Source of the DNA: Caulobacter vibrioides OR37
GTDB lineage: Bacteria > Pseudomonadota > Alphaproteobacteria > Caulobacterales > Caulobacteraceae
Direction of reading: 5' to 3'
DNA length: 64,000 nucleotides
Assembly: GCF_000372645.1 (NCBI RefSeq)
Contig: NZ_APMP01000013.1
Span: 1-64,000, forward strand
Every line of letters begins with the position of its first letter. Positions within the stretch are counted from its first letter, which is position 1. A program made the position numbers and the translations under genes. Positions 11,333-52,411 of this stretch are shown here, piece after piece. The notes beneath the pieces are model-generated. The model was not told the origin of the DNA. It did not search any database and was given only the letters and a program-made list of their open reading frames with translations.

Positions 11333-11871
11333 GCCGCCCGGGCGCAGGCGCGCAGGGCGTCGCGCCAGGTCTCCAGGCCCGGCACGACCTTGCCGAGCAC
11401 CTTGGCGGCGTCATCGGCCTCGCGGAGCAGCAGGGCGTCGTCGCGATGAGGATCTTCGGCGAAGCGGGCGACTTCCTCGGCGGTCATGTCGCCGCCCTGG
11501 GCCTCGAAGCTGCGCACGCTGGTGGGCGACAGGCATTGGCGATAGTCCGGCTGGGTCGTGACCATGTACCGCTTGGCGGCGACATGCAGGGCGACGAGGG
11601 CGTTGACCCGATCGTTCATCAGGCCGCGCAGCGCGTCGGCGCCGAACTCGGCGTGGTCGCGAATGTGGCACAGACCGTGCGCCACATCGTGCAGCAGGCC
11701 GGCGACCTGCAGCTCGACATCGTCGGGCTTCATTGCCTTCAGCACGGCGGCGCACTGCAGGCCGTGGTCCAGTTCGCTCAGCTCGGGCGCCTCGCAGGGG
11801 CGGTTCGCCATCTCCTCCAGATAGGCGTCCAGCGCCTCGAGCGTGGGGAAATAGGGCTTGGTCTCCGTCAT
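11329..11871 (-). CDS. PhnZ-like HD-domain diiron oxygenase, module A
   Basis: 180-residue HD-domain protein of the phosphonate-catabolism HDIG family (PhnZ/TmpB type). These mixed-valent diiron enzymes cleave a C-P bond in 1-hydroxyphosphonates, releasing phosphate. The diiron ligands are all present: H36, H61-D62 in LLHDVAH, H73, H96 in LHVAAKRY and D153 in LREADDAAK. The family C-terminal stretch QGGDMTAEE is also present. The Tyr and Glu described in PhnZ as controlling substrate binding (Y24, E27) have no obvious equivalent, so the substrate may differ. No PhnY-type hydroxylase is nearby. It is divergent from the receptor gene at 12163 and upstream of the DUF5690 permease. The stop codon lies inside the repeat element. 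Confidence 0.82.
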   Translation of the reverse strand: MTETKPYFPTLEALDAYLEEMANRPCEAPELSELDHGLQCAAVLKAMKPDDVELQVAGLLHDVAHGLCHIRDHAEFGADALRGLMNDRVNALVALHVAAKRYMVTTQPDYRQCLSPTSVRSFEAQGGDMTAEEVARFAEDPHRDDALLLREADDAAKVLGKVVPGLETWRDALRACARAA

Positions 11872-14484: not shown

Positions 14485-14557
14485 TCGAAGGTCCGGTCAC
14501 GGCGCGACGCCGTGGCCGGACGCCTTTGTCATAGCCCGCTTCCGGAGCCTTGAGACC

Positions 14558-15691
14558 GTGCGGAACCTGGATCCGACAGACGATCTCGTTCGCGGCGTCG
14601 TGAGCCGCGCGCGAACCTCTGAGGGCCTTCGTCTATCGCGGCTGCCGGCCGCCGCCGAGGGACGGGACCCCGATCCTCAGTTGGTGCTGACGGCGAGCAT
14701 GGCGGCCGGGATGCGACTGCGGGTCGACAGCGACACCCGCGCGCTGGAGCTGGACGTCGAGGCGGCGGGCCTGCGCTATGTCGGGGGCGAACGTCGGACG
14801 GTGGCCTTCGACCTCTTCGTCGACGATCGCCTGTTCGAGCGCCGCGTCGTGTCCGAAGGGCCGACGCTGCTGGTCGATTTCGGGTCCTCGCCGCCGGGGG
14901 TGATCCAGGAGGCGGGACCGACGACCCGCCTTCGCTTCGAGGGCTTGCCGCCGGGGCCGAAGCGGCTGGAACTGTGGCTGCCCCAAAACGCCGCGATCAC
15001 CCTGAAGGCCCTGCGGATCGACGCGGAGGCGACGGCCTCGCCGCCATCTCCCGGCCGGCGATCCTGGCTGCACTACGGCAGCTCGATCAGCCACGGCAAG
15101 GAGGCCGATGGCCCCAGCGACTGCTGGCCCGCCATCGTGGCGCGCGCGTTGGACCTGGATCTCACCTCGCTGGGCTACAGCGGCAACTGCCTGCTGGAGG
15201 GCTTCGTCGCCCAGGCCCTGGCGCGAAGCGACGCCGACATCCTGACGCTGGAAATCGGCGTCAACGTGGTCAGCAGCGACGCCATGCGCGAGCGCGCCTT
15301 CATTCCAGCGGTCCACACCTTTCTCGACATCATTCGCGACGCGCGCCCGGATGTTCCGATCCTGGTCATCTCGCCGCTCTACGCGGGCGTCCTCGAAAAC
15401 CATCCCGGACCGGCGCGACGCGGCGCGCGGGGGATCGAGGCGGTGTCCCGTCCCGCCGGCTTGGCCGAGGGCGCGCTGACCGGGGCCTCGACCCGACACG
15501 TGCTCGAAGGTCTGGTCGAGCGGCGCCGGGCCGGGGGCGATCGGCGGCTGCATTATCGCGACGGCCGCGCGCTGCTCGGCGAAGCGGACGCCGGCCTGCT
15601 GGTCGACGGCCTTCATCCATCCGACATCGGACAAAAGCTGATCGGGCGTCGCGCCACGCCGATCGTCGATCGCCTGCTGTCAGGCGACTGA
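14558..15691 (+). CDS. SGNH/GDSL-type esterase, module A
   Basis: SGNH-hydrolase family esterase or lipase, 377 residues. Block I is HYGSSISHG with the nucleophile at S176, block II is SGNC, block III is EIGVNV and block V is DGLHPS (D350, H353). About 170 residues precede the catalytic domain and form a beta-rich accessory domain of the kind seen in GDSL-like lipases. No signal peptide is visible. The frame is open from 14417 inside the receptor gene; the GTG at 14558 with GGAG 12 bases before it is the better start. Its last 12 bp overlap the convergent LysR gene. In context it may deacylate a lipid or other ester imported through the receptor. Confidence 0.82.
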   Translation: MRNLDPTDDLVRGVVSRARTSEGLRLSRLPAAAEGRDPDPQLVLTASMAAGMRLRVDSDTRALELDVEAAGLRYVGGERRTVAFDLFVDDRLFERRVVSEGPTLLVDFGSSPPGVIQEAGPTTRLRFEGLPPGPKRLELWLPQNAAITLKALRIDAEATASPPSPGRRSWLHYGSSISHGKEADGPSDCWPAIVARALDLDLTSLGYSGNCLLEGFVAQALARSDADILTLEIGVNVVSSDAMRERAFIPAVHTFLDIIRDARPDVPILVISPLYAGVLENHPGPARRGARGIEAVSRPAGLAEGALTGASTRHVLEGLVERRRAGGDRRLHYRDGRALLGEADAGLLVDGLHPSDIGQKLIGRRATPIVDRLLSGD

Positions 15692-16645
15692 AGCGGCGGG
15701 GCGGTCGGCGCGGGCGCCTTGCGCGGCGGGCAAAAGCGACGGCGAGCCAGGTTGCTTGCGCTCGGTCAGGTCGACGAAGGCGCGCACGGCGGGCAGGTCG
15801 CTCAGCGTTTCCGGATAGATCAGATAGGTGCCCGCGACGATCCGCGGCTCGATCGGGATGAAGCTGACCCGGGAGTCGAAATTGGCTTCGGAGTTGAAGA
15901 CGATCCCCGCGCCGACGCCGGCCGCGACCGCTTCGCGAACGCTTTCGCGGCCATGAAGGGTCAGGCGGATGTCGGGCGTCAGGTTCTTTTCGGCGCAGGC
16001 GCTCTCGAAGATCCGTCGCGTGATCGATCCTTGCTCCCGCATGACCAGGGGCAGGGCGGCGACGGTGTCGAGGTCTATCGCCGAGCGGCCCGCCAGCGCG
16101 TCGCCGGCCGGCAGCCAGGCGCACAGGTGGATGGCCTCGATCAGGCGGCAGTTGAAGTCGGTCACCGCCTGGGGCAGGCCGGCGACCGCGATGTCGATGC
16201 GGTTCTGCTCCAGCAGGCCCAGCAGATCGTCCGAATTGCCGGCGATGGTGTGGACGTCGACGCCCGGATGGGCGCGCATGAAGGCGCCGATCAGCGACAT
16301 GGCGCAGCGGGGCGCGCTGATGCCGATCCGGATCTGTCCCAGCTCCAGCTGCTTGAACTGGTCGAGGCTGGCCTCCAGCTCGTTCACGCGGCTCAGGATG
16401 ATCCGCACGCGCGTATAGACGTCCCGGCCGATCGAGGTCAGCTCGGGCTTGGGACGGCGGTGGAACAGCGTCGCGCCCAGCATGTCCTCCACGGCGGCGA
16501 TCTGGAACGAGACCGTCGGCTGGGCGATCTCCAGCAGCTTGGCGGCGTTGGAAAAGCTGCCGGTCTCGGCGACGGTCACGAAGGTCCGCAGCACCTGCAG
16601 GCTCAGCGCCCCCAAGCCGCGCTTGCCGTCTTTCTTCTGTTCCAT
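15680..16645 (-). CDS. LysR-type regulator, module A
   Basis: LysR transcription factor, 321 residues. The N-terminal winged helix (residues ~14-72) includes the recognition segment AAKLLEIAQPTVSFQIAAVE, followed by an effector-binding domain. The segment GRESVREAVAAGVGAGIVF resembles LysR proteins linked to aminoethylphosphonate catabolism, which fits the PhnZ-like gene nearby. The last ~30 residues are low-complexity. It is divergent from the phosphodiesterase gene (16833) and convergent with the SGNH gene. It probably controls module A. Confidence 0.88.
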   Translation of the reverse strand: MEQKKDGKRGLGALSLQVLRTFVTVAETGSFSNAAKLLEIAQPTVSFQIAAVEDMLGATLFHRRPKPELTSIGRDVYTRVRIILSRVNELEASLDQFKQLELGQIRIGISAPRCAMSLIGAFMRAHPGVDVHTIAGNSDDLLGLLEQNRIDIAVAGLPQAVTDFNCRLIEAIHLCAWLPAGDALAGRSAIDLDTVAALPLVMREQGSITRRIFESACAEKNLTPDIRLTLHGRESVREAVAAGVGAGIVFNSEANFDSRVSFIPIEPRIVAGTYLIYPETLSDLPAVRAFVDLTERKQPGSPSLLPAAQGARADRPAASVA

Positions 16646-16832: not shown

Positions 16833-18182
16833 ATGCGTTCGCTGATGCGGTTCGCGGCCATGGTCGCCGCGCTGACGATGGCGTCCAACGCCATGGCCAA
16901 GGGCCATTCGCTGGTGGTGATCTCGATCGACGGGATGCGCCCCAGCGAGATCACCGACCCGAACGCCGGCGATCCGGACCTGCCCTATCTTCGCGGGTTT
17001 CTGAGCGGAGGCAGCTACGCGGACTCGGTTCGCAACGAAACCCCGACCCTGACCCTGCCCAACCATGTCTCGCTGGTCACCGGGGTCGCGCCCGAACAGC
17101 ATGGCGTCATCGACAACATCGTGTTCGATCCCATCCATCCGGGCGCCAACCAATTCTATTGGTACGCGCAGGACATCCGGACCCCGACGCTGTGGACCCA
17201 GGTCCGGCAAGCCGGCGGCAAGGTCGCCAGCGTCAACTGGCCCGTCACGGTCGGGGCCGACATCGACTACAACATCCCCCTCTATTGGCGCGATCAGACC
17301 CCGGAGGACGTCAAGCTGATCCGGGCCATGTCGACGCCCGGCCTGGTCGACGAGTTGGAGAAGAAGACCGGCTTCAAGCTCGCCCAGGCGATCATGCACA
17401 TGCCGGACTCCGATCGCGTGGCGGGCCGCTTCGCCGCCGAGATCCTGAAGTCGCGGCGTCCCCGACTTCTGTTGATCAACTTCTCGGCCTTCGACATGGC
17501 CCAGCACCTGTTCGGTCCGGGCAGCCCGCAGGCCAAGGCGGCCCTGCGCAATGTCGACCAGGTCGTCCGCGACTTGGCCGAGGCGGCCAAGGCGGCCGAT
17601 CCCGACGCCGTGGTGGCGGTGGTGTCCGACCACGGCTTCGCGCCGCTGCACGACGACGTGAACCTGCTGAAGGCCTTCGCCGACGAGGGTCTGGCGCGGT
17701 TCAGCGCCGACAAGAGCCAGGTCGAGTCCTGGGACGCCCTGCCATGGGGCGGCGCGACGGCCGCGGTGTATCTGGCCCGGCCCGAGGATCCCGACCTGCG
17801 CGGCCGGGTTCGCGCGTTCCTCTCCACGCTGAAGACTGACGCGTCGTTCCATATCCGCCAGGTGGACGACCTCACCGAGACGCCGGCCTACGCGGCGGGC
17901 CACGCGCCCGCGTTCCGCGTCGGCTTCGAGATCGGTTTCGAGATGGGCCGCGACGCCAATGCGCCGCCGGTGTCGCCGAGCCGCTATCGGGGGATGCACG
18001 GCTATCCCGCCAGCTATCCGGAAATGCGCTCGTCGTTCTTCATCCAGGGCGCCGATATTCCCAAGGGGCGCGATCTCGGGGTCATCCGCATGGAGAGCAT
18101 CGCCCCGACCCTGGCGGCCGTGATGGGCTTGCCGAGCACGGGTGAGAACCTCCTCAAGTCGGAGCGCGCGCCCGCCCGGTAA
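16833..18182 (+). CDS. Secreted NPP-type phosphodiesterase (alkaline phosphatase superfamily)
   Basis: Exported metal-dependent hydrolase of the nucleotide pyrophosphatase/phosphodiesterase type, 449 residues, with a signal peptide (residues 1-22, ending NAMA). Metal-site motif ISIDGMRP opens the domain; the nucleophile is T74 in TLTLPNHVSLVTG; later motifs are FDMAQHLFGP, VVSDHGF and MHGYPA. Relatives hydrolyse nucleotide phosphodiesters, choline glycerophospholipids or phosphonoacetate. Within module A it could release a head group outside the cytoplasm for the receptor/permease/oxygenase to use. It is divergent from lysR. The stop codon lies in the loop of a GC-rich hairpin. Confidence 0.85.
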   Translation: MRSLMRFAAMVAALTMASNAMAKGHSLVVISIDGMRPSEITDPNAGDPDLPYLRGFLSGGSYADSVRNETPTLTLPNHVSLVTGVAPEQHGVIDNIVFDPIHPGANQFYWYAQDIRTPTLWTQVRQAGGKVASVNWPVTVGADIDYNIPLYWRDQTPEDVKLIRAMSTPGLVDELEKKTGFKLAQAIMHMPDSDRVAGRFAAEILKSRRPRLLLINFSAFDMAQHLFGPGSPQAKAALRNVDQVVRDLAEAAKAADPDAVVAVVSDHGFAPLHDDVNLLKAFADEGLARFSADKSQVESWDALPWGGATAAVYLARPEDPDLRGRVRAFLSTLKTDASFHIRQVDDLTETPAYAAGHAPAFRVGFEIGFEMGRDANAPPVSPSRYRGMHGYPASYPEMRSSFFIQGADIPKGRDLGVIRMESIAPTLAAVMGLPSTGENLLKSERAPAR

Positions 18183-19589: not shown

Positions 19590-19792
19590 AGGGCGATCTC
19601 GACGCTGTCTCGAAAAGGCTCTCGTCATTGTTCCGGCGCCGGCCAGCCGGAGGTGGTCCTCGACACCGCCCGCCCTCCAACGGATGTTGGAATCGACCTA
19701 GATCGACACTCCGAAGTTCTGGGGCGCTGGTCTTGACGAAGAGACCGCCTTGCCGTCCGCTGAACCACCCAACGTGTTTCATTGAGGTTGCC

Positions 19793-41097: not shown

Positions 41098-43944
41098 TCA
41101 GTAAGCGTAGGCCACGCGCAGGATGAAGTTGCGGCCCGGCTCCATGTAGTCTTTCTGATAGGACGGGTTCTTGCCCTTGGTCGTGTAGTAGCGGTGCCCA
41201 TCCAGGATGTTCTGCACGTCGAAGTCGACGGTCAGGCCGCGACGGATGTTGTAGCGGGTGTGCAGATCCAGCGACTTGTTGGGCTGAACCCACTTGTCGA
41301 CCGCGTTGTCGCGCGTGTCTTCGATGTAGGCCCCTTGATACTGGTAGCTCAGCTTGGCCTCGATGCCGTACTTCTGATAGGTCAGCGAGGTGTTGTAGAT
41401 CAGGTCCGGCGCCTGGATGAACGAGATCGGGTGGCCGCGACGATAGTCCAGGCCGGTCTCGGCCGACGAGGTCTGGGCGGTGACGTTGGCCTCGACGCCG
41501 AAGCCGTCGAACGGCGCGCCCAGCCCCTCGAACGACTTGATCAGGTTCAGCTCCACCCCGGTCAGGGTCGCCTTCTCGCCGTTTTGCGGCTGGGTGATGG
41601 TGATCGTGCCGTTCTTGGTGTCGGCGTTCACCGAGCGGCCGTTGGTGAAGATGAAGTGCTTGATCTTCTTATGGAAGACGCCGACGGACACCAGGCTGGA
41701 ACGGTCCGGATAATATTCGGCCGACAGGTCGAAGTTCAGCGACTCGCCGGGCTTGAGGTCCGGATTGCCGCGGCTGATGGCGATGATCTCCTTGGTCGCC
41801 GGATCGCGGGTCACGCTCTCGCCGCGCGAGATGTTGGCGTATTCCGGCCGCGAGAAGCTGGTCCAGATCGCGCCGCGATAGACGAGTTTCAGGCCCTGAC
41901 GATAGACGGCGGTGACGCTGGGCAGGACGTTGGTGTAGTCGCGGTTGGTCTTGCCGAAGCCGGACGTCGTACCGTCGTTGATCCAGGTGGTGGTCTCGAC
42001 CTTGGTGTGTTCGACGCGGGCGCCGCCGATGACTTCCAGAGCCCCCGACCGGACATGGGCCAGGGCGTAACCGGCATAGATGGTTTCCGAGCCCTTCTTG
42101 TCGTCGCTGTTCAGGTCCGCGGTCGAATACGACACCGGATGGGCGGCGCGCGCGGCGTCCAGCGCGGCGATCACCCGGTCCCGGCTCATGATCGAGCCGT
42201 AGTAGTAGCGGTCGGTGAACAGGCCGCTGACCTGACGCTCGACCAGGCCAGACGCCGCCAGCGACTTTCCGTTCAGCGCGGTGCCGGACAGGTCGCCTTC
42301 CCAGATCGGCGTGGAGTCATATTCGCGCTCCGACTTCAGATACTTGAAGCCGCCCTTCACGTAGTCGATCAGGCCGTTCAGCTCGTAGCGGGCGTCTACC
42401 TTCAACGCGGTGCGGGCGTCGGACTGCTTGTTCTTGTTCATCGACGCGCCGTCGAACGGCAGCAGGTCGTCGCGATGGTCGACATTGGCGGCGTAGGCCG
42501 GAAGCTGCGCCTGAGGGAAGCGCGGATCGGCCGACGACCACAGGATGCCGGTCGAGGTGAACATCGGATCGGTCGAGCATTTGTCACAGTTGTAGCCGAT
42601 GCCGTAATAGAGCGGCGTGCCCTTCTCGCCGTAGGAATAGCTGAGGTCGTAGTCGAGGGTCAGGCGCTCGAAGCGGCTGTGGCCGCCCGCGTTGATCGTG
42701 TAGAGCGACGAGTCCTGGTCCTGGGTTTCGAAGGTGCGGGCGAACTGGAAGGCCTTGGGGTTCCAGACGCCCGAACGGCCAAATAGCGACCAGTACGACT
42801 TGCTCGACTTGCGGTCGGCGTCGGTGATGAGGCCGTCTTTGTCCGCGTCGACGATCTGGGCCACGGTGTAGCCGTAGATGTTGCCCTTCACCGGGTCCTT
42901 GCCGATGATCATCTGCTCGGGCTGAAGCAGGGTCGTGTCGTCCAGATTGACCTGGGTCAGGCGCGCGGTTGTGCGGCTGCGCTCGTCGGTATAGTCGTTG
43001 ACGCCCTTGCGGTTCAGCTTGGCGTACTGGCCGCGAACATAGAACTCGTGATGATCGACGTGATAGTCGATCGAGAAGTTGCCGCCATAGCGCTTCTGTT
43101 CGCCGCGGCGGAAGTCGAGGTCGATGCCGGGCAGGTACATCGAGCGGCTGTCGATGGCCTCGGTCGAGTTCTTGCGCCAGTGGTAGGGCTCCCACTCGCC
43201 GTCGTTCTCGGTCTCTTCGTTGGTGTAGTGGCTCTTGCCGTAATAGACCGAGCCGAACAGGCCCAGGCGGTCGTCGGCGAACTTGCGGGCGACGTCGATC
43301 TGGATCTGGCCGCTGCCGGCCGGCTCGTTGTCCTTCTGGGCGCGGTCATTGAGGCCGTAGGAGGCGAAGACGCGCAGGGTCGGCTTGCGGAAGTCGAAGG
43401 CGGTCGGGGTGACGAAGTTGACCGCGCCGCCGATCGCGTCGCCGTCCAGGTCCGGCGTCAGGGTCTTGTAGACCGCGATCGCCTTCAGGCCGTTGGGCGG
43501 CAGAACCGTCATCGACATCTTGCGCGAGCTGGAGTCGGTCAGCGCCACGCGGGTGCCGTTGATCGAATAGGCGTTGTAGGTGCTGGCCAGGCCGCGAATG
43601 GAGACGTACTCGCCCTCGCCGGTTTCCTGGTTGACCACGACATTGACGCCGGGAATGCGGGCCAGGGCGTCGGCGACGTTGGCGTCGGGCAGCTTGCCCA
43701 GGTCGTCGGCGGAGATGACGTTGACGACGCCGGTCGCCTTCTTCTGCTCGTCGATCGAGTTGGCGGTCGACAGGCGCTGGCCGGTGATGACCAGCTCGCT
43801 GACGGCGTCGGCGGCGGGCTTGGCCGGGGCGTTCTGGGCTTGCTGATCGCCCGTTTGGGCATGGACGGCCGGCGCGAAGGCGAGCGCGAGGACGCTGGCG
43901 CCGGTCAGGGCCGCGAGCTTGAGGCGCGATGGCGGGTTGAACAT
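41098..43944 (-). CDS. TonB-dependent receptor, Xanthomonas/Caulobacter type
   Basis: Large outer-membrane receptor, 948 residues, of the TonB-Xanth-Caul group common in Caulobacter. The signal peptide ends at HAQ (residue ~28). The plug includes DALARIPGVNVVVNQETGEGEYVSIRGL and LTPDLDGDAIGGAVNFVTP. The barrel ends FILRVAYAY. The ATG at 43944 begins the signal peptide; the frame is open to 44016 without export features. Such receptors often import carbohydrates, peptides or other organics. It lies downstream of module B on the same strand but has its own AT-rich promoter region and a repeat element in between, so membership in module B is uncertain. Confidence 0.92.
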   Translation of the reverse strand: MFNPPSRLKLAALTGASVLALAFAPAVHAQTGDQQAQNAPAKPAADAVSELVITGQRLSTANSIDEQKKATGVVNVISADDLGKLPDANVADALARIPGVNVVVNQETGEGEYVSIRGLASTYNAYSINGTRVALTDSSSRKMSMTVLPPNGLKAIAVYKTLTPDLDGDAIGGAVNFVTPTAFDFRKPTLRVFASYGLNDRAQKDNEPAGSGQIQIDVARKFADDRLGLFGSVYYGKSHYTNEETENDGEWEPYHWRKNSTEAIDSRSMYLPGIDLDFRRGEQKRYGGNFSIDYHVDHHEFYVRGQYAKLNRKGVNDYTDERSRTTARLTQVNLDDTTLLQPEQMIIGKDPVKGNIYGYTVAQIVDADKDGLITDADRKSSKSYWSLFGRSGVWNPKAFQFARTFETQDQDSSLYTINAGGHSRFERLTLDYDLSYSYGEKGTPLYYGIGYNCDKCSTDPMFTSTGILWSSADPRFPQAQLPAYAANVDHRDDLLPFDGASMNKNKQSDARTALKVDARYELNGLIDYVKGGFKYLKSEREYDSTPIWEGDLSGTALNGKSLAASGLVERQVSGLFTDRYYYGSIMSRDRVIAALDAARAAHPVSYSTADLNSDDKKGSETIYAGYALAHVRSGALEVIGGARVEHTKVETTTWINDGTTSGFGKTNRDYTNVLPSVTAVYRQGLKLVYRGAIWTSFSRPEYANISRGESVTRDPATKEIIAISRGNPDLKPGESLNFDLSAEYYPDRSSLVSVGVFHKKIKHFIFTNGRSVNADTKNGTITITQPQNGEKATLTGVELNLIKSFEGLGAPFDGFGVEANVTAQTSSAETGLDYRRGHPISFIQAPDLIYNTSLTYQKYGIEAKLSYQYQGAYIEDTRDNAVDKWVQPNKSLDLHTRYNIRRGLTVDFDVQNILDGHRYYTTKGKNPSYQKDYMEPGRNFILRVAYAY

Positions 43945-44329
43945 GGTGACTCCGTTGATCTGTCCCGACGCCCGCCCCCCAAGGGCGCGCGCCTTCACCT
44001 CCCGGCGGTGGGTCACCGTCGGGCAAAAAACGACCCGACACCCCTGTGAGAGGGCGTTCAGGCTTGAGCTGTGCGAGGCCGTATCCCGTCCGCGATGCGC
44101 TGTTCGTGAAGCCCCCTTTACGAACCGCGATCATAAAAAATGCGAATGAGACAATTTGATCTATACGAAAAAAGTATGACGGCTTGTTGACGCCAGGAGG
44201 TTGTGAAAGGGCGCCGCGTCCTGGGGCGCGGCGTCAGGGGGGGGCGGCCCCGGACCAGGAGGCGCGCGCGAAACTCAAGCGCGAGCGGCGAGCCGCTGGC
44301 GCTCTAAATTTCTGAATTCAGGCGGCCTT
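43945..44329. promoter_or_regulatory. Promoter region upstream of the receptor, no gene
   Basis: No credible gene. The AT-rich stretch 44125-44195 holds TATGACGGCTTGTTGAC (44175-44191), 14 of 17 identical to a box upstream of the module B receptor at 52525-52541. A GC-rich hairpin (44212-44233) and a GCTCTAAATT repeat fragment lie further from the gene. Confidence 0.45.
44175..44191 (-). promoter_or_regulatory. Shared receptor-upstream box, copy 1
   Basis: TATGACGGCTTGTTGAC; read on the minus strand it begins GTCAACAA, like a -35 region or activator site. A similar box lies at 52525. Confidence 0.4.
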
Positions 44330-44443
44330 TAGAGCGTGATAGCCGAAAGTGTGAGCGGTTTCGGCGGTTATCACGCTCTAAATGTTTGATTTAGAGACTT
44401 ATTTTCCGCTCGAATGATTCCATTCGAGCGGATAAGGCTCTAG
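44330..44443. repeat. Double-hairpin repeat element, copy 3
   Basis: 114 bp, differing from copy 2 by one base (GAGACTT for GAGCCTT). Its right end supplies the TAG stop codon of the phospholipase gene (complement of 44440-44442). Confidence 0.9.
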
Positions 44444-46578
44444 GCGTTCAGCACCATCTTGCCGATGCCCGGGTCGGTGCGGCTGACCCGGCCGGTTTCG
44501 ACGTGACCGGCGAATTGCGCGCTCCAGCGTTTGTCGGCGTCGTGGGTCAGGCGGAAGGCGTACCAGTGATCGCTGGCGGACGGGTCCAGGACCAGCCTTG
44601 CCTCGCCGCCGGGCGGCAGGGCCGCCGTCTCGGCGCCTTCGACGAACGCGAAGGGATAGGCCGGCTCGCCGGTCAGGGTCACGCTCAGGGGCTTGGCGCC
44701 GTCATTGCGAAGCTGAACGGCCAGGCCGCCGGTCCCGGTCTCGGAGACCGCCGCGGTCAGCCCGCCGGCCCGCTCGCGGTGGCCCCGGAACCGGCGATAG
44801 AAGCCGTTGGGGCCGTGCACGACGAGGTCGTAGTCGCGCACGTCTTCCATGGCGAACAGGTCGGCGACGTGCCGCTCGCCAGGCGTCAGCGTGTAGTGGC
44901 GCGGGGCGGCCGGCGCGTAGGCGGCGTAGTCGTGGAGGGTGAACACCGCCCCGACCTCGCCCTGGTTGACCAAGGTGACCCGGAAGCGGCCGTCGACGAC
45001 GCCGCCGTCGACGGCGAGGCGATAGGGCAGGGCTCGCGCCAGGCGGCGGGCCGGATCCTGAACGGCGGCGACCTGCGTGGCCGGGATCCGCAGGGTCGGC
45101 TGGCGCGCCGCGTGGGCGATCCGGTCGAGATAGTCGGCGGTGTCGGGCAGGCCCAGGCTGTGCGTCTCGGCGTTGGGAGTCTTGAAGTCGAAACAGGCGG
45201 TCAGATCGCCCGCGACCGCGCGCCGCCAGGGCGAGATGTTCGGCTCGCGCACGCCGAAGCGCTTTTCCAGGAACATCAGCGTCGAGGTGTGGTCGAACAG
45301 CTGCGAGCAGACATAGCCGCCGCGCGTCCAGGGCGAGACGATGATCGCCGGCACCCGAATGCCCATGCCGATCGGCTGGACGCCGCGCACCATCGGGTGG
45401 GGGTGGTTCGAATAGTCCTTGAACTCCCCCGCGACGCTGACCCCGCTGTGGCCGCGGCTGGCGTCGGCGGGCGGCATCGGCGGGGGCATGTGGTCGTAGA
45501 AGCCGCCGGCCTCGTCATAGTTGATCATGAACACGGTCTTGGAGAACACCTCGGGGTGCTCGACCAGGGCCGCGATCAGCCGGGCGGTCAGGTGCTCGCC
45601 CGCGGCCGGCACGCCCTCGGGATGTTCGGACAGCGCCTGGGCGGTGACGATCCAGGACACCTGGGGCAGCTGGCCGCTGGCGATGTCGCGCCGGAACGCC
45701 TCGACCAGCTGCGTCCCGTCCGAGCGGCTGCGATCGGGCTCGGGCCGGCCCTCGGACACCCAGGCGCGGCCGCGACGATAGAGGTTCGAGTCCCTGGGGC
45801 AGGGCCGGTAGGGGGCGAACACCGAGAGGATGTTGTCGCAGTAGTTGTCGTATTCCTGATAGACCTTCCAGCTGACGCCGGCCTTTTCCAGCCGCTCGGG
45901 ATAGGTCGTCCAGGCGTAGGGCGTGATCGGCTGGTCGGCCGCCATGTCGGCCCACGGGGTCTCGTCGTGGCCGTAGTTGGTCATCACCGGATCGCCGCCC
46001 ACCGCGCCGCCGCCGTTGCAGCCGGTCATCATGTGCATCCGGTTCGGATAGGTCTGGGTCAGGGTCGAGCAGTGATAGGCGTCCAGCACCGTGAAGCTGG
46101 ACGCCAGGGCGTGATAGAAGGGCAGGTCGGCGGCCGTGTAGTAGGCCATGCGCCGGTCCATCTGCTTGGACTCGCCCCAATGGTCGTAGCGCCCGCCGTT
46201 CACCAGCAGGGTGGCGGCGGTGTGATGCTGGTCGGCGCCGTCGACGACATAGGCGTTGGCGGTGCGGGAGTCGGCGTGGAACGGCTGGACGAAGCCGTCG
46301 GGGTGCTGGTCGCTGGGCTGGCGCCAGACGGTCTGGCCGTTCAGCAGCCGCAGCGGCCGGGGATCGCCAAAGCCGCGCACGCCGGGCAGCGTGCCGAAAT
46401 AGTGGTCGAACGCGCGGTTCTCCTGGGTGAGGATCACCACGTGTTCGACGTCGCGGATCGTGCCGGTGCGGTGGTGCGCCGGGGTGGCGAGCGCGCGGTT
46501 CAGCGTGGCGAGCGCGGCGACGCCGAGCCCCCCGGCGGCTGTCTTCAGAAAGGCGCGGCGATCAAACGACATGGTCAT
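44440..46578 (-). CDS. Tat-exported phospholipase C, phosphocholine type
   Basis: Phospholipase C of the non-haemolytic, phosphocholine-preferring type, 712 residues. The Tat signal DRRAFLKTAAGGLGVAAL is at the N-terminus. The acid-phosphatase-like catalytic start ENRAFDHYFGTL is characteristic, as are NYDEAGGFYDHMPPP and SPWTRGGYV; two C-terminal beta domains of unknown role complete the family architecture. It cleaves phospholipids to diacylglycerol and a phosphorylated head group. It starts 23 bp after the DUF5690 stop, so it is cotranscribed with that permease and the PhnZ-like gene. It could equally release phosphonate head groups from phosphonolipids, which would feed the oxygenase. Confidence 0.92.
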   Translation of the reverse strand: MTMSFDRRAFLKTAAGGLGVAALATLNRALATPAHHRTGTIRDVEHVVILTQENRAFDHYFGTLPGVRGFGDPRPLRLLNGQTVWRQPSDQHPDGFVQPFHADSRTANAYVVDGADQHHTAATLLVNGGRYDHWGESKQMDRRMAYYTAADLPFYHALASSFTVLDAYHCSTLTQTYPNRMHMMTGCNGGGAVGGDPVMTNYGHDETPWADMAADQPITPYAWTTYPERLEKAGVSWKVYQEYDNYCDNILSVFAPYRPCPRDSNLYRRGRAWVSEGRPEPDRSRSDGTQLVEAFRRDIASGQLPQVSWIVTAQALSEHPEGVPAAGEHLTARLIAALVEHPEVFSKTVFMINYDEAGGFYDHMPPPMPPADASRGHSGVSVAGEFKDYSNHPHPMVRGVQPIGMGIRVPAIIVSPWTRGGYVCSQLFDHTSTLMFLEKRFGVREPNISPWRRAVAGDLTACFDFKTPNAETHSLGLPDTADYLDRIAHAARQPTLRIPATQVAAVQDPARRLARALPYRLAVDGGVVDGRFRVTLVNQGEVGAVFTLHDYAAYAPAAPRHYTLTPGERHVADLFAMEDVRDYDLVVHGPNGFYRRFRGHRERAGGLTAAVSETGTGGLAVQLRNDGAKPLSVTLTGEPAYPFAFVEGAETAALPPGGEARLVLDPSASDHWYAFRLTHDADKRWSAQFAGHVETGRVSRTDPGIGKMVLNA

Positions 46579-46601
46579 CGCTCTCCCGGGTTAGGGCGGG
46601 T

Positions 46602-47915
46602 TCAGATCAGGGCGGGGGCGGCCGCGCGCGGCGGCTGGGCGACGCGGCGGAACGTGTTGAAATGGAAGTGGAGCAGGGCCAGCAGGGTGGCGACGCCGAC
46701 GACCAGGGCGACCAGGTAGCAGGCGCCGAGGAAGAAGCTCAGCCAGCTCAGCTTGACGCCCAGGCTCTTGACCAGCAGCAGCGCGACGCTGCCGCCATAG
46801 CCCGAGGCGTCGGTCAGATACATGAAGAAGGCGGCGTTGCCGGGAATGCCCATCGCGGCGGTCAGCCGGTCGGCCAGCACGGCGTTGAAGGGGATGTAGC
46901 CCATATAGACGCCTGCGCCGACGCCGATCATCCAGGTCATCGCGCCGATCCAGTGGAGCTGCAGGGCCAGGGTGGCGGCGGCGATCAGGGCCGCGCCGGC
47001 CAGGATCATGCAGAGATAGGCGATCACCGCCGTGCTGTTGCGGCGGATCCAGGCGGTCGCGCCGAACAGCGCCAGGATGAAGGCCGCGATCGGCAGCTCC
47101 GACAGGGTGAACAGCGCCGGATTGCCGTCGTAGCCCAGGCCATGCCACAGCTCGACGGCGAAGTTGTCGCGGAAATCCCGCAGCGCGGTCAGGGCCACAT
47201 AGGCGACGATCAGCAGGGCCAGGCCGATGCCGGCGCGGGCCCAGAAGGCGCGCCGCTCGGCCTTGGGCATCGGCCCGCGCGGCATCCGCTCGGCCCGGTC
47301 GCGGGCGTCCGGCGGCGGCGTCTGGGACAGCAGCCAGACCGACAGCACCAGCAGCGGCAGGAACAGCGCGCCGGTCGCCGCCGGCATCCAGAACTCGGGA
47401 ACGCCCCAGTTGTCGATCAGCGAGCGGCCGGCCGACTTCACGACGCCCGACGAGACGATGAAGCTGAGGCAGAGGCCGGTGCCGAGCCATTCGGAGCTGC
47501 GGCGCCCCTCGACATAGCCGAACACCAGGCCCCAGATCATGCCCAGCGGCAGGGCGCTGAAGAAGATCGCCACCACCTTCAGCGGGGCGGGCAGGATCGC
47601 GAACAGCACCAGCGAGACCTCGGAGGCGCCGATGAAGCCGAGGATCATCCAGGCGCGATCCTGGGGTCGGGCCTCGCTGATCATCTTGATGCCGATCGCC
47701 TTCGACAGCGCGTAGCCGATCACCTGGGCGACGACGATCGTCACCTTGAAGTCCAGCGCTGAATGCCAGCCGGGCGTCGCCGCGTAGCTCGCCACCGCGA
47801 ACGGCTTGCGGAACGCGTACATGCAGAAATAGGTGGTGAAGCTGGTCAGCAACGCATAGGCGGCCACCCAGGCCGGGCCCGCCCGGCTGAGCATCCGCGA
47901 GATTGGCGATGGCAT
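46602..47915 (-). CDS. DUF5690-type major facilitator permease, module B
   Basis: Paralogue of the module A permease, 437 residues with about 12 membrane segments. Shared landmarks are TYFCMYAFRKPF, LPLGMIWGLVFGYVEGRRSSE, RDFRDNFAVELW and ADRLTAAM. It lies between the PhnZ-like gene (157 bp upstream) and the phospholipase gene (23 bp downstream). Presumed substrate is the head group released by the phospholipase. Confidence 0.82.
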   Translation of the reverse strand: MPSPISRMLSRAGPAWVAAYALLTSFTTYFCMYAFRKPFAVASYAATPGWHSALDFKVTIVVAQVIGYALSKAIGIKMISEARPQDRAWMILGFIGASEVSLVLFAILPAPLKVVAIFFSALPLGMIWGLVFGYVEGRRSSEWLGTGLCLSFIVSSGVVKSAGRSLIDNWGVPEFWMPAATGALFLPLLVLSVWLLSQTPPPDARDRAERMPRGPMPKAERRAFWARAGIGLALLIVAYVALTALRDFRDNFAVELWHGLGYDGNPALFTLSELPIAAFILALFGATAWIRRNSTAVIAYLCMILAGAALIAAATLALQLHWIGAMTWMIGVGAGVYMGYIPFNAVLADRLTAAMGIPGNAAFFMYLTDASGYGGSVALLLVKSLGVKLSWLSFFLGACYLVALVVGVATLLALLHFHFNTFRRVAQPPRAAAPALI

Positions 47916-48034
47916 GTCGGTGTCCCTGCTCGGTCCGCGGTCGCGGTCGCGGGCGCGCGCCAGGCTTGGCGGCGACGCGCCCGCGACGTTGAATTGCGTT
48001 AGATTATGAAATCACATTCCGTATAACTAAAGAA

Positions 48035-48051
48035 TATGATGTCATGATGAC
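48035..48051 (-). promoter_or_regulatory. Box upstream of DUF5690, weak copy
   Basis: TATGATGTCATGATGAC in the AT-rich 157-bp gap between the PhnZ-like and DUF5690 genes, 13 of 17 identical to the box at 52525. It suggests a separate promoter for the permease and phospholipase. Confidence 0.3.
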
Positions 48052-48072
48052 GCCGAGGGTCCGGCGCCTGGG

Positions 48073-48645
48073 TCAGGCCGCCTGGGTCAGGGCCGAGGTC
48101 AGGTGGCGGTCCAGGAAGGCCTCGATGGGGTCGGGGCGCGCGTGCTTGTCCTTGGCCAGCTCGTCGATCCGGCGAAGGGCGACCGCCGCCTCGGCGTGGG
48201 GCTGGGCCAGGAAGGCCGCCTGTTCGTCGGCCGACATCAGGCCCCCCTGCAGCACCAGCGACAGCAGCGAGTCCCGCGACAGCGTCGACAGATAGCCAGG
48301 CGCGGCCGAGCAGAGGTAACGCTTGGCCGCGACGTGCAGGCGGATCGGCGCGGCGACGGTCTCGGGGAAGCGCTCGGCCACCCAGTCGGCGCCCAACTCC
48401 TCATGCCGGTCGTCGATGCCCGCCTCGGCGGGCGCCTCGCCCAGATCGTGCACCATGTGGCCGACGTCATGCAGCAGGCAGGCCATGACCATCGCCGACG
48501 ACAGGCCCTGGGCTTCGGCGTGGGCGGCCGACTGCAGGGCGTGGGCCAGCTGGGTCATCTCATAAAGTCCGTAGGCGCGTTCGCCCAGGCCGAGATACAG
48601 GCCGCGAATTTCCTCTCGCAGCGCTTCCGAAGGCGACGACGTCAT
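48073..48645 (-). CDS. PhnZ-like HD-domain diiron oxygenase, module B
   Basis: 190-residue HD protein of the PhnZ/TmpB type, closer to the characterised enzymes than the module A copy. Diiron ligands: H35 in QLAHALQ, H59-D60 in LLHDVGH, H81, H104 in LHVAAKRY, and the Asp in LRRIDELAK. The N-terminal YGLYEMTQLAH holds a Tyr (Y25) where PhnZ has its gating Tyr and a Glu (E29) close to the PhnZ substrate Glu position. The family motif LQGGLMSADE is present. It would oxidatively cleave a 1-hydroxyphosphonate to a carboxylate and phosphate. No PhnY or TmpA hydroxylase gene is nearby. No clear Shine-Dalgarno precedes the ATG; a dyad occupies that position. Confidence 0.87.
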   Translation of the reverse strand: MTSSPSEALREEIRGLYLGLGERAYGLYEMTQLAHALQSAAHAEAQGLSSAMVMACLLHDVGHMVHDLGEAPAEAGIDDRHEELGADWVAERFPETVAAPIRLHVAAKRYLCSAAPGYLSTLSRDSLLSLVLQGGLMSADEQAAFLAQPHAEAAVALRRIDELAKDKHARPDPIEAFLDRHLTSALTQAA

Positions 48646-48649
48646 AATT

Positions 48650-48689
48650 TATACAAATCCAAATCAGGTTTTGATTTTGGATGTTTATA
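48650..48689. promoter_or_regulatory. AT-rich dyad between lysR and phnZ-like gene, module B
   Basis: Imperfect inverted repeat with arms TATACAAATCCAAATC and GATTTTGGATGTTTATA. It ends five bases before the PhnZ-like start codon and overlaps the LysR stop. It may be a regulator site or an RNA hairpin affecting translation of the oxygenase. Confidence 0.45.
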
Positions 48690-49611
48690 TTTCGCCGCCG
48701 CCGCCAGCAAGCCCCAGAAACGCGCCCAGAGCGGGAATCTCGGCGCTTTCGCGCAGCGAGACGAGATAGACGCCGGCCGTGCGCCGGAAGCCGCGGATCG
48801 GCAGGGCCTTGAGGCGTCTGTCGCTGCCGGTTTCGCCCTCGAGAATGCAGGCGAAGCCGATCCCGCACGCGGCGGCTTCCTTGACCGCTTCGCGGCTCTC
48901 GAGCACGAGGGCGGTGGTCGGCGTTGCGCCGACCCAGGCCAGCGCCTGTTCGGTCAGCGCGCGGGTGACCGAGCCCTCCTCGCGCAGGATCAGCGACAGT
49001 CCGGCCAGCTCCTTGACGTCGATCGCCTCGCGCTGGGCGAAGGGGTGATCGGCGGGAACGACCAGGTTGAGCCCCTGTTCGCGCAGCAGATGGCAGGCCA
49101 GGCTGTTGTCGGGCTCCAGCATCGAGACCATCGCCACGTCGACCCGACATTCGATCACGTCGCGGATCAGGGACTGGGTGTTGCCCAGCCGCGTGCCGAT
49201 TTCGATGTCGGGATAGGTGCGGCGATATTCGGCGATCAGCGGCATCGTGAACGGCGGCGTGGAGAAGCCGATCACCAGGCGGCCGCGCTTGATGCCGCCG
49301 AACAGCCGGGCGGTGGCCTCGAAGTCGTTCATCCGGCTGATGACCAGGCGCGCGCGGGTGTAAAGCTCGCGGCCGACATCGGTCAGGCTCTGGTCGTGAG
49401 ACCGGCGGTTCAGCAGGCGCGCTCCGCACGCCTGTTCCAGCGCGTTGATCTGGTTGGAGATATTGGGCTGCGACACGCCCATCGCCGCGGCCGCGCGCGA
49501 GAAGGAGCCGTGATCGACCACGCCGACGAAGGCGCGCAGCGCGCCGATCGACAAACCGCTGCCCTCGCGACGACGGGAAGCGCGTTCGGAACGAGGGTCG
49601 TCGCCGGTCAT
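48685..49611 (-). CDS. LysR-type regulator, module B
   Basis: LysR transcription factor, 308 residues from the ATG at 49611; the open frame to 49674 starts with TTG and runs through a hairpin. The helix-turn-helix is SFSRAAAAMGVSQPNISNQINALE. The effector domain contains LESREAVKEAAACGIGFACI, parallel to the module A regulator and to LysR proteins of aminoethylphosphonate operons. It lies between the receptor gene and the PhnZ-like gene on the same strand, 39 bp before the latter. Confidence 0.87.
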   Translation of the reverse strand: MTGDDPRSERASRRREGSGLSIGALRAFVGVVDHGSFSRAAAAMGVSQPNISNQINALEQACGARLLNRRSHDQSLTDVGRELYTRARLVISRMNDFEATARLFGGIKRGRLVIGFSTPPFTMPLIAEYRRTYPDIEIGTRLGNTQSLIRDVIECRVDVAMVSMLEPDNSLACHLLREQGLNLVVPADHPFAQREAIDVKELAGLSLILREEGSVTRALTEQALAWVGATPTTALVLESREAVKEAAACGIGFACILEGETGSDRRLKALPIRGFRRTAGVYLVSLRESAEIPALGAFLGLAGGGGEI

Positions 49612-49656
49612 CGCGAGCTCATAACCAAAATTGATGATGGGCTCTTTTAGTCGGTT

Positions 49657-49686
49657 CTGGGGGCGCGGCAACACCCACGCCCCCAG
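49657..49686. terminator. Hairpin between receptor and lysR, module B
   Basis: 9-bp perfect stem CTGGGGGCG/CGCCCCCAG with a 12-base loop, 20 bp after the receptor stop. It lacks a proper U-tract on the minus strand, so termination would be partial. Confidence 0.4.
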
Positions 49687-49705
49687 GCTGTATTCGAGGT
49701 TTTCG

Positions 49706-52411
49706 CTAGAATGTCACCGACAGAGACAGCGCCGCCTGGCGGCCGGCGCGGACGATCTGCGGCACGGTTTCGGCGTCCCGGCCGACGGTGCGGTAGAAGC
49801 TATAGTTGTCGAGCAGGTTGCTGACCGTCGCCGCCAGACGGACCGACGGGGTCGGCAGATAGGCGAACGAGGCGTCCAGCGAACGGGTCGATTGCGTCCA
49901 TTCGCTCATCAGCGCGCCGCCGGTGGTCCCGAACTTGTACTTGCTGAGCACGCGCCCGTTGAAGTGATAGGAAAGGCGCGCCTCGAACTTGTTCGGATTG
50001 AAGAAGATCGCGGCGTTGTAGAGAGTCCGGGGCGTGCCCGCCATCGGCTGGGTCGGGTCGGTGGTCGGGTCCAGCAGCCGCGCTTGCGAGCGCTGCAGCG
50101 TCACGTTGCCGGCCACGCCCAGGGCCGACAGCGCGCCCGGCATGTCGCGGAAGCGGTACTCGCCGTCCAGCTCCAGGCCATAGACGTGGGCGCGGCCGCC
50201 GTTGACGGGCTTGCTGACCGTCGTGTCGTTGGTGACGATCGCCGGCGTGCTGCGATAGTCCGTGCCGCGATCGTACATGTAGTCGTTCATGTCCTTGTAG
50301 AAGGCCGCGACCGCGACGCGATAGACCGGTTGGGTCCGCTCCCACGACACGTCGTAGTTGGTCGAGGTCATCGGCCGGAGGTTGGGGTTGCCCTCGGTGA
50401 CCGAGAAGGTGCCGTCGGTATTGCGCTTGACCGTGCGCCCGCCGCCCAGCTGGAAGAAGGCCGGACGCGAATAGCTCCGCCAGATGGCCGCGCGGAAGAC
50501 GCCGGCGTCGTCGCTCCGCAGCACCGCGTGCAGCGACGGCAGGAGCATGTGATAGGCGCTGCGGTTGGTCTGGAAGCCCGAGACTTGGCCGGCGCTATTG
50601 GCCTTCGACCAGAAGCGGTTGTGGATGACCGTGTCCTCGTAGCGAACGCCCGGCTGGATCTCCAGCGCGCCCCACCGCATCCGTGTCAGCGCATAGGCGG
50701 CGGCGACGCTTTCATTGCCGGCCAGCACGTTCTTGTAGCGCGAGTCCGGCGACAGGGTGACCGCCGCGGCGGCGTTGGCCGCCAGCCGCGTCAGCTCCGC
50801 CGCGTCGCCGGTCGGCAGGGTGTAGGGGTAGCGGTCCTTGTCGGCGATCACCTGGCCGTTGAACAGGCTGCTGGTGGCCAGGGTCGCGTTCAGCGGCGCG
50901 AAGTCGATGTTGGAGTAGTCGACATTGTCGCTGTCGCGGTCGCTGCGCGTGAACTTCGCGCCGGCCGCCACTTCCTTGAACAGGCCGTCGAGCGCGTAGG
51001 CGGCGTCGAACTTGCCGCCATAGACCTTCGCCGATGAGGTGGCGGCGGTGTATTCGCCGCTGCCGACCTGATAGGCGAACAGGCTGTTGTCGTTCAGCCG
51101 CGCCAGCTGGGCCGCGCTGAGCAGCGGGATCGGGTAGCGGTCGCGATAGGTCACCTGGAACGGACCGTTCAGGTCGTTGGCCGCGCTGGCCAGGAAGGTG
51201 ATCTCGGCGTGGTCCGGGGCGGCGCTGAGGCCATAGCTGTAGAAGCCCGAGCCGCTGAGCTTCAGACGGCCAAGCCGCGTCTCGCCGCCCAGCTGGACCG
51301 AGGAAAGCCGCGCGTTCGACGGCGCGGTCTCGAACCAGTAGTGATATTCGCCGTCGCTCTCGCCGTTCTGGTACAGCCCGTCCGGGCGCAGCACGGGGGC
51401 CGGATAGTTCCCGGCCTGAATGCCCTTCTGATAGATCTGCTGGGTGATGTCCGAGCGGGCGTGGGTCGCCTTGAGCCACAGGCTGGCGTTCTCGCCCTGC
51501 CAGTCCAGCGACAGCGCCCCGCCATAGCGCAGCTCCTCGCCGCGGCTGAACTGGGCGTTGACGCTCTTGAGGATCAGATTGTCCTGGCGGCTGAAGCCGT
51601 CCGGATTGGTTCCCTGCTTGCCGACCGACACCGCGTAGCCCCATTGCCCGCCTTGGAAGTCGAGCATGGTCGAGGCGAAGCGGCGCTTGCCGTAATAGGC
51701 CGTGGCGTAGACGCCGAACGCGTCGCCGGGGCCGAACTGGCGGGCGAATTCCGCCTGGCCCAGATAGGATCCGGCCGGCGCGTGATAATCATGGGCCAGC
51801 GGCGAGTAGCCGCCCTGCAGATAGACCCGATTGTAGCGCTTGCCGAAATCGCGGGCGACCGGCGTCTGGAAGTCCAGCGTGCCGCCCACCGCGTCGCCGT
51901 CCATGTCGGCGGTCGAGGTCTTCGACACGGCGATCTGCTTGAGGCCGATCGGCGGCAGCAGGCCCAGCGAGATGTTGCGGCTGTAGGGCATCCCCTGGGC
52001 GGCGTTGGCGCCGTTCAGCAGGTTGACGTTGTACGACCCCGACAGCCCGCGGATCGACACGAAGTTGCTCGTGCCCCGCCCGGCGCCGTCGATCCCGCCG
52101 TGGTTGCCTTCCGACGGCGACAGGCCCTCGGTGGCGCTGACGGAGATGCCCGGCGTGCGGGCCAGGACGTCGACGACGTTGGTGTTGGGAATGGCCAGCA
52201 TCTCGGCGGCCGAGATGGTGGTCGTCTGGCTGACGTCGTTGGGCTTGTCGCGGCCGGCCTTCGCGCCGAGAACGACGACCTTGTCGACCTGATCGTCAGG
52301 GGCGTCGGCGGCCCAGGCGAGGGCGGGCGTGCAGGCGCTGGCCAGCAGCGTCAGCACGGCGAGCGAAGGGGCGGCGCATCGCTGCGCTTTGCCCGGGAAA
52401 TAGGGCGGCAT
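49706..52411 (-). CDS. TonB-dependent receptor, module B
   Basis: Outer-membrane receptor, 901 residues, Xanthomonas/Caulobacter type. The signal peptide runs to about residue 35 (PALAWA). The plug contains VDVLARTPGISVSATEG, FVSIRGLSGSYNVNLLNGA and the phrase ADMDGDAVGGTLDFQTP also typical of the receptor at 41098. The C-terminus ends AALSLSVTF. It is the first gene of module B and is preceded by an AT-rich promoter with the box at 52525. It likely brings lipid-derived or phosphonate material through the outer membrane. Confidence 0.92.
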   Translation of the reverse strand: MPPYFPGKAQRCAAPSLAVLTLLASACTPALAWAADAPDDQVDKVVVLGAKAGRDKPNDVSQTTTISAAEMLAIPNTNVVDVLARTPGISVSATEGLSPSEGNHGGIDGAGRGTSNFVSIRGLSGSYNVNLLNGANAAQGMPYSRNISLGLLPPIGLKQIAVSKTSTADMDGDAVGGTLDFQTPVARDFGKRYNRVYLQGGYSPLAHDYHAPAGSYLGQAEFARQFGPGDAFGVYATAYYGKRRFASTMLDFQGGQWGYAVSVGKQGTNPDGFSRQDNLILKSVNAQFSRGEELRYGGALSLDWQGENASLWLKATHARSDITQQIYQKGIQAGNYPAPVLRPDGLYQNGESDGEYHYWFETAPSNARLSSVQLGGETRLGRLKLSGSGFYSYGLSAAPDHAEITFLASAANDLNGPFQVTYRDRYPIPLLSAAQLARLNDNSLFAYQVGSGEYTAATSSAKVYGGKFDAAYALDGLFKEVAAGAKFTRSDRDSDNVDYSNIDFAPLNATLATSSLFNGQVIADKDRYPYTLPTGDAAELTRLAANAAAAVTLSPDSRYKNVLAGNESVAAAYALTRMRWGALEIQPGVRYEDTVIHNRFWSKANSAGQVSGFQTNRSAYHMLLPSLHAVLRSDDAGVFRAAIWRSYSRPAFFQLGGGRTVKRNTDGTFSVTEGNPNLRPMTSTNYDVSWERTQPVYRVAVAAFYKDMNDYMYDRGTDYRSTPAIVTNDTTVSKPVNGGRAHVYGLELDGEYRFRDMPGALSALGVAGNVTLQRSQARLLDPTTDPTQPMAGTPRTLYNAAIFFNPNKFEARLSYHFNGRVLSKYKFGTTGGALMSEWTQSTRSLDASFAYLPTPSVRLAATVSNLLDNYSFYRTVGRDAETVPQIVRAGRQAALSLSVTF

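Follow-up and report, generated by a model that had tools for sequence, protein, structure and literature searches.

Does the repeated pairing of an exported, head-group-releasing enzyme with a DUF5690 permease and an HD-domain protein of the PhnZ type mark a unit for scavenging phosphonates, and would DUF5690 be its transporter? The question is raised by module B, a cluster of five genes at positions 44440–52411 of the first 64,000 nucleotides of contig NZ_APMP01000013.1 (Caulobacter vibrioides OR37, assembly GCF_000372645.1; we refer to this whole stretch as the window). As originally described, all five genes are on the minus strand, and they run from a TonB-dependent receptor through a LysR regulator, the HD protein and DUF5690 to a phospholipase C (PLC), with gaps of 31, 39, 157 and 23 bp (Table 1). 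The proposed pairing does recur, three times in this genome and also in other genomes; searched as a whole, the genome has three genes for DUF5690 and as many for a full-length HD, each of the latter close to a DUF5690. Judging from sequence, we lean towards module B being a phosphonate-scavenging operon in general, and place less weight on lipid as the source.

Association of DUF5690 with phosphonate genes

Among 200 genomes of the order we found DUF5690 in 27, a full-length HD protein (over 100 bits) in 13 and PbfD in 20, of which 19 are over cut-off (the PbfD of G062 is a fragment below it). DUF5690 was also carried by 12/13 of the HD genomes (Fisher p 3.4e-11) and by 19/20 of the PbfD genomes (Fisher p 2.4e-19), in tests that count related genomes as independent. 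It should be noted that treating every TIGR03276 match as PhnZ-type was tried and rejected: 108/200 genomes have a match at E 0.001, but all except 16 matches are short, and we kept only these 16 (over 100 bits, in 13 genomes) because the rest are of about 33–63 residues and 20–39 bits and represent generic HD domains. In 8/12 of the genomes with both genes, an HD shares a contig with a DUF5690 less than 6 kb away (distances range from 47 bp to 5.2 kb); the other four genomes have them on separate contigs, near contig ends in the case of G176.

A second set comprised the best 80 of 92 named-record loci found, chosen by similarity to the module B DUF5690. Using hidden Markov models (HMMs) built from the same loci in which the markers were later counted, and applied with thresholds of our own choice, we found within 5 kb of DUF5690 an HD in 22 loci, PbfD in 17, a PhnX-like protein in 14 and an HpnZ-like dehydrogenase in 30; at least one marker was present in 54 loci, or in 31 when the dehydrogenase is not counted. 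None of the four markers was found at 4 to 6 kb, and seven were at 6 to 8 kb. For each marker cluster a single representative was compared with the curated models: that of HpnZ reached 303 bits, under the cut-off of 328, and the PhnX-like one from L048 was also under its cut-offs (181 vs 218.9 and 107 vs 220). Counted from the other side, DUF5690 lies near 32/40 HDs, though most of these loci had been picked through DUF5690 in the first place, which biases the count (duplicate short loci L001–L006 were dropped). An NPP-type enzyme, which parallels module A, is within 5 kb of DUF5690 in 10/80 loci and adjacent to it in 8, and in none of the 28 order-set loci. In five loci of Sediminibacterium-like Bacteroidota (L070, L071, L072, L075 and L080) an NPP-type phosphodiesterase directly adjoins DUF5690, as in module A.

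Two arrangements tie DUF5690 to enzymes acting on the carbon–phosphorus (C–P) bond that are identified by curated models. In L079, from a Gimesia sp., the genes after DUF5690 encode the methylphosphonate hydroxylase PhnY (540 bits, cut-off 500) and PhnZ1 (401 bits, cut-off 300), and in L114 the (R)-hydroxy-2-aminoethylphosphonate (hydroxy-AEP) ammonia-lyase PbfA (618 bits, cut-off 525) stands between LysR and the HD–DUF5690 pair, in a locus that also holds a phosphocholine-specific PLC (PC-PLC) and a module-B-like receptor; PbfA is likewise present in G102, where locus L115 is arranged in much the same way. These related clusters have a C–P enzyme above its curated cut-off, whereas module B itself has none, its HD falling below.

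DUF5690 is found in the Pseudomonadota, Bacteroidota, Planctomycetota, Verrucomicrobiota, Myxococcota and others, and the association of the module genes recurs in the first four of these with different gene orders. SusC-like receptors are within 6 kb of 7/40 HDs, in Bacteroidota; the label was taken from a single member, L051, whose TonB receptor has a plug and a carboxypeptidase-like domain. Two Asticcacaulis loci have a DeoR-type regulator beside PbfD/PhnX-like genes (L014, 5340–6116, and L016, 2537–3313) and also carry LysR–HD–DUF5690. In three planctomycete loci (L038, L044 and L047) DUF5690 sits in a shared neighbourhood with no phosphonate marker within 5 kb, and may carry other substrates there.

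HD proteins and their active-site loops

The module B HD has the six metal ligands H35, H59, D60, H81, H104 and D161 together with K108, S126, Q133 and R158. Among the 40 HDs compared, the six di-iron ligands (H...HD...H...H...D) are present in 39/39 with a complete N-terminus and the other four residues in 40/40. The structural model (pLDDT 91) matches TmpB (6npa) and PhnZ (4mln/4n71); the fold search gave 10 matches at E up to 0.001, every one a chain of 6npa (TmpB) or of 4mlm, 4mln, 4n6w and 4n71 (PhnZ), and the profile search likewise returned PhnZ and TmpB only. We think it likely that the HD would act as a C–P oxygenase.

The HDs differ in the loop that gates the active site. PhnZ and TmpB have a YxxE loop, in which the Tyr occupies Fe2 until substrate binds and the Glu is in hydrogen-bonding distance of the substrate amine (review, PMC8177086). 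The module B HD has YGLY (Y25xxY28, or YxxY) at this position, the module C HD has YxE, and the module A HD is without the gating Tyr. Of 39 HDs, nine have YxxE (all Bacteroidota), 16 YxE (including module C) and nine YGLY (the module B clade), four are Tyr-less (the module A clade: L114, L115, L118 and the window), and that of L125 has YHAK. In the HD tree (open reading frames over 260 aa cut to their last 200 residues, starts being uncertain; truncated L012 dropped) the B clade of nine rows and the A clade of four rows are each supported at 100/100 and both stand apart from the rest. The HD and DUF5690 trees are midpoint-rooted, and long branches were flagged (L118, L125, L120, L108, MODA_DUF and others).

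As the B loop is YxxY and the A loop has no gating Tyr, the two HDs are likely to differ in substrate. Their head-group recognition probably differs too, that of module B perhaps not being for a primary amine. For the A type, pbfA and phnZ were found together in 0/1,186 phnWX clusters and 0/75 phnWAY clusters in one survey (PMC8154272), and the A-type HD beside PbfA suggests that it does not do the job of PhnZ. The Tyr-less HD shares L114 and L115 with PbfA, the hydroxy-AEP lyase, so in the fuller reading given below it would probably act on another hydroxyphosphonate and have to control O2 access differently from PhnZ. The divergent HD of L125 (G085, 8829–9623) lies next to a PF13372 Alginate_exp porin, and this genome has no DUF5690 and has PhnJ on the same contig.

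DUF5690 as a candidate transporter

The model of the module B DUF5690 (pLDDT 89.9) has an MFS fold, and Y29, Y33, R36, K37, K72 and R246 are present in 35/35 aligned sequences. This matches the pattern of the organophosphate:phosphate antiporter (OPA) family, Y-x3-Y-x2-RK in the first transmembrane helix and Arg in the seventh, when aligned to R45, K46 and R269 of GlpT, which we take to have a phosphate-binding role. The model resembles organophosphate/phosphate transporters (VIA-align), with SLC37A4 first, but the fold by itself cannot decide between families, because NorA, URAT1, DgoT, OCT1 and others score close behind. In profile comparison DUF5690 matches OPA weakly (hhalign E 0.0011 with a probability of 20%), scoring 35.4 over 346 columns where the control families ACS and MHS score 17.6 and 31.1. 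Searches of NCBIfam gave no match at E up to 0.01 for the module B protein or up to 0.001 for that of module A; a single-sequence search of the PDB was empty up to E 1, and a profile search of it gave two chance-level matches, at 0.93. The DUF5690 tree used 67 of 111 rows, with sequences cut to their last 460 residues since starts were uncertain.

The conserved residues and the company the gene keeps make DUF5690 a likely phosphonate transporter. The original prediction left its cargo as phosphonates or phosphorylated head groups; phosphonates are favoured because the recurrent enzymes beside DUF5690 are C–P enzymes.

Phospholipases C

The module B PLC has a twin-arginine motif, DRRAFLK, at its N-terminus (by eye). 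In a tree of 23 PC-PLCs it belongs to a clade of 17 (support 100/100), 16 of which have an HD in the same locus, the remaining locus (L096) being cut at a contig end. The separation is imperfect for the six PLCs outside, three of which come from HD loci of Sphingobium/Novosphingobium that have a PLC of either kind. Four full PC-PLCs are encoded in the genome, and two of these (on C24 and C28) are among the six outside the clade; neither HD nor DUF5690 was found by our own HMMs in the 18 kb stretches surrounding these two. Leaving out truncated L096, ten positions separate the 16 clade PLCs from the six outside, nine being fixed in 16/16 and one in 15, with D358G, N357A and W345F among them. 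Position 358 (DENDG/DEGDG) is G in 16/16 clade PLCs and D in 6/6 outside; solved PC-PLCs 9gy2, 9gye and 8yk5 have D here, and 8k3g and the plant non-specific PLC NPC4 (8hav) have G. The differences fit a changed or wider head-group preference, and we regard it as evenly balanced whether the module PLC would act on a phosphonolipid.

Modules A and C and other phosphonate genes of the genome

Module A (9917–18182) contains DUF5690, HD, LysR, a receptor and an NPP-type enzyme presumed to be exported, as it has a signal-like N-terminus (by eye). The original prediction saw module B as a second, rearranged version of module A in which a PLC replaces this enzyme. The replacement is as described (Table 1), and three of the four parts said to recur are homologous, with identities of 51% for DUF5690 (418 aligned columns), 38% for HD (138 columns) and 36% for LysR (293 columns). 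The receptors are a different matter, as BLASTP finds no similarity between them (E=0.29). We have rejected the view of module B as a rearranged copy, since the HDs of A, B and C fall in three separate clades and the module A receptor is unrelated to that of module B, and an A-type HD is found paired with a B-clade DUF5690 in other genomes (L114 and L115).

Module C (locus L008, G000:C1:459000-478000, locus positions 7803–12809) has DUF5690, a GntR regulator in place of LysR (PhnR model, 243 bits, cut-off 297) and a divergent PC-PLC (TIGR03396, 746 bits) followed 19 bp on by the HD. There is a TonB receptor beside it, which may belong to another cluster because an MFS_1 protein (85 bits), a luciferase-like monooxygenase and a flavin reductase adjoin the receptor. 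The genome also has PbfD (404 bits, cut-off 285) and PhnX (335 bits, cut-off 220), whose genes overlap by 4 bp and lie at a distance of some 27 kb from the DUF5690 of module C, on another contig than modules A and B; no PhnW (TIGR03301), PhnJ or PbfA over cut-off was found in it.

Several neighbouring features should also be mentioned. A second receptor lies 423 bp downstream of the module B PLC and shares 29% identity with the module B receptor, its membership of the unit being uncertain. The module B stretch 44440–49674 and locus L011 go with the Sphingomonas azotifigens relationship described below. In module A a GDSL-type esterase (14417–15691) sits between the receptor and LysR, and adjoining the module (18142–20842) are a GH68 levansucrase/invertase gene and then a LacI-type regulator, apparently a separate sugar locus.

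Table 1. Features of modules A and B in the window, with the model matches on which the assignments are based.
Feature	Position	Strand	Evidence
DUF5690 permease, module A	9917..11191	-	PF18943 448 bits
HD oxygenase-like protein, module A	11329..11871	-	TIGR03276 129 bits, below cut-off; metal ligands complete, loop CEAPE
TonB-dependent receptor, module A	12163..14484	+	PF00593/PF07715
GDSL-type esterase in module A	14417..15691	+	PF14606/PF13472
LysR regulator, module A	15680..16645	-	TIGR03339 202 bits, below cut-off
NPP-type phosphodiesterase, module A	16833..18182	+	PF01663 161 bits
Second TonB-dependent receptor near module B	41098..44016	-	TIGR01782 570 bits
Tat-type phospholipase C, module B (712 aa)	44440..46578	-	TIGR03396 PC_PLC 726 bits, cut-off 580
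DUF5690 permease, module B, proposed phosphonate importer (437 aa)	46602..47915	-	PF18943 464 bits, cut-off 25
PhnZ/TmpB-type HD-domain putative oxygenase, module B (190 aa)	48073..48645	-	TIGR03276 194 bits, cut-off 214.6
LysR regulator, module B (329 aa)	48685..49674	-	PF03466/PF00126
TonB-dependent receptor, first gene of module B (901 aa)	49706..52411	-	TIGR01782 439.6 bits, cut-off 310

Contrary evidence and alternative explanations

A number of observations weigh against a phosphonate unit with DUF5690 as its importer, and the first concern distribution. The original prediction expected DUF5690 to accompany HD oxygenases in other genomes; this holds overall, yet 15/27 DUF5690 genomes are without a full-length HD, seven of them having PbfD instead. 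The other 8/27 have neither HD nor PbfD (G116, G136, G146, G196, G023, G048, G082 and G162), and a C–P lyase would account for few of these, as PhnJ was found in only 1/8 (G023). The Caulobacter vibrioides control has DUF5690 but no HD match, and no PbfD match at E 1e-40, and no marker is within 5 kb of DUF5690 in 26/80 named-record loci and 14/28 order-set loci. Others concern the proteins themselves, as all three HDs and both LysRs of the genome score below NCBIfam cut-offs; for module B the HD reaches 194, 128 and 116 bits against TIGR03276, NF049941 and NF052439 (cut-offs 214.6, 300 and 300), and the top match of LysR is TIGR03339 phn_lysR at 231.9 bits (cut-off 341.1). The remaining points are taken up with the explanations they bear on.

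A further difficulty is that no PhyH-type alpha-hydroxylase was recognised in modules A–C, the single PhyH protein of the genome being on another contig (C18), so that the HD would need a ready-made hydroxyphosphonate. Hydroxy-AEP was first isolated from Acanthamoeba polysaccharides and is reported from Bdellovibrio stolpii lipids with stereochemistry unspecified (PMC8154272), which would account for a pathway that can do without a hydroxylase. We listed 77 genes neighbouring HDs and scanned 10 with Pfam and 44 more through alignment (a few of them again); PhyH is absent among the families listed (25 of 55) for these 44. Beside HD, PhyH was found in L046 and L079, and a gene of another hydroxylase family, PF05118, is directly beside the module C HD. 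PF05118 (aspartyl/asparaginyl beta-hydroxylase-like) and sulfotransferase genes lie beside HD or PbfD in L008 (12810–16917), L093 (14805–17703) and L014 (1061–2322), and are possibly a separate receptor-linked cluster or an unrecognised hydroxylase of the pathway.

The alternative that survives best is the scavenging of phosphate esters, in which PLC or NPP would release phosphocholine or phosphoethanolamine, DUF5690 would import it, and the HD would be a phosphohydrolase freeing phosphate. It is consistent with the PLCs of modules B and C, both of which pass the phosphocholine-specific model TIGR03396, and with the solved relatives of the module A NPP, among which ENPP6 (5ege, E 5.7e-14) is fourth and a bacterial NPP (2gsn, E 1.7e-17) closest. 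We nevertheless find it unlikely, as the HD keeps the PhnZ/TmpB ligands and phosphonate-site residues and strongly matches only those folds, the recurrent DUF5690 neighbours are C–P enzymes, and the HD-locus PLC clade differs at positions fixed in the six outside PC-PLCs (though three of those six are also in HD loci).

In a second alternative DUF5690 would not be an importer but would export phosphate or a catabolic product, or act as a sensor, with import left to another system. Sensing has a precedent in UhpC, an annotated glucose-6-phosphate sensor of the OPA kind, and the MFS_1 protein next to the module C receptor could be such another system; a module B-like PLC–HD–LysR–receptor cluster, L126 (G042:C2), has no DUF5690 in its 19 kb. 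Against this alternative, DUF5690 is the only inner-membrane transporter among the scanned genes of modules A and B, and a scan of the genome with the OPA model TIGR00881 gave no protein over its cut-off; we consider it more improbable than the first.

Finally, that these genes are neighbours through horizontal transfer of loosely related phosphorus genes with no one shared pathway might be read from the differing combinations of module parts between clades, and from the nearest relative of module B being that of Sphingomonas azotifigens (87% in DUF5690, then Caulobacteraceae loci at 69–71%), which would suggest transfer if the host is not a Sphingomonas, but the recurrence of the association in four phyla with different gene orders makes this very improbable.

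Proposed pathway and comparison with known systems

For the preferred reading, phosphonate scavenging, we infer the substrate, direction of transport and order of steps from the genes as follows. The Tat-exported PLC (or NPP in module A) would act outside the cytoplasm and release the head group from a lipid, and the TonB receptor, whose place would be taken by SusC-like receptors in Bacteroidota, would carry either the substrate or the product through the outer membrane. DUF5690, in which the phosphate-binding residues of OPA transporters have their counterparts, would import the free phosphonate, the HD di-iron oxygenase would cleave the C–P bond of an alpha-hydroxyphosphonate to give phosphate and a carboxylate, and LysR would sense the substrate. 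Unhydroxylated aminoethylphosphonates would be handled by PbfD and PhnX, whose genes are at another place in the genome. If the hydroxyphosphonate is not taken up ready-made, it might come from an encoded but unrecognised hydroxylase, such as the PF05118 protein beside the module C HD. The fuller version, a phosphonolipid-utilisation system with a head-group-changed PLC clade, a TonB receptor, DUF5690 as a new transporter family and YxxY and Tyr-less HD oxygenases of uncharacterised kinds, is put forward tentatively, and we would sooner doubt it than rely on it.

If correct, this would give a function to DUF5690, a Pfam family so far without one, and add another kind of bacterial phosphonate importer to AepXVW, AepP, AepSTU, PhnCDE and PhnSTUV (PMC8316502, PMC10574752). 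It would also tie lipid breakdown to C–P cleavage and account for bacterial access to lipid-bound phosphonate, and with the loop types as a guide the substrate range of the HD oxygenases can be tested directly. A search of open-licence papers for DUF5690 found nothing; in the available parts of such papers on phosphonate, TonB receptor, PLC and transporter together no such locus is described, and for phosphonolipid, PLC and AEP together there was nothing on topic, judged by title.

The permease AepP (GlpT-like, for 2-aminoethylphosphonate; PMC8316502) is, like DUF5690, an MFS protein linked to phosphonate genes, and is of the OPA kind, to which DUF5690 may belong; DUF5690 is set apart by having its own Pfam family with, in the searches given above, no NCBIfam match or solved sequence relative. 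The module B PLC is full-length and over cut-off for TIGR03396 with a twin-arginine motif, as are phosphocholine-specific PLCs, and its HD-locus clade differs from the six other PC-PLCs at the ten positions given above. Both enzymes of the PbfD–PhnX route for aminoethylphosphonate and N-methyl-aminoethylphosphonate (PMC10590968) are encoded in this genome and are often next to DUF5690 in relatives, though here they form a separate locus, unlike relatives with PbfD beside DUF5690. The HDs share ligand and phosphonate-site residues with PhnY*/PhnZ, TmpA/TmpB and the Gimesia PhnY/PhnZ1, the last pair itself adjoining DUF5690 in L079. Modules A–C differ from these three systems in that no PhyH-type alpha-hydroxylase is recognised, in their altered loops, and in being coupled to an exported phospholipase or phosphodiesterase.

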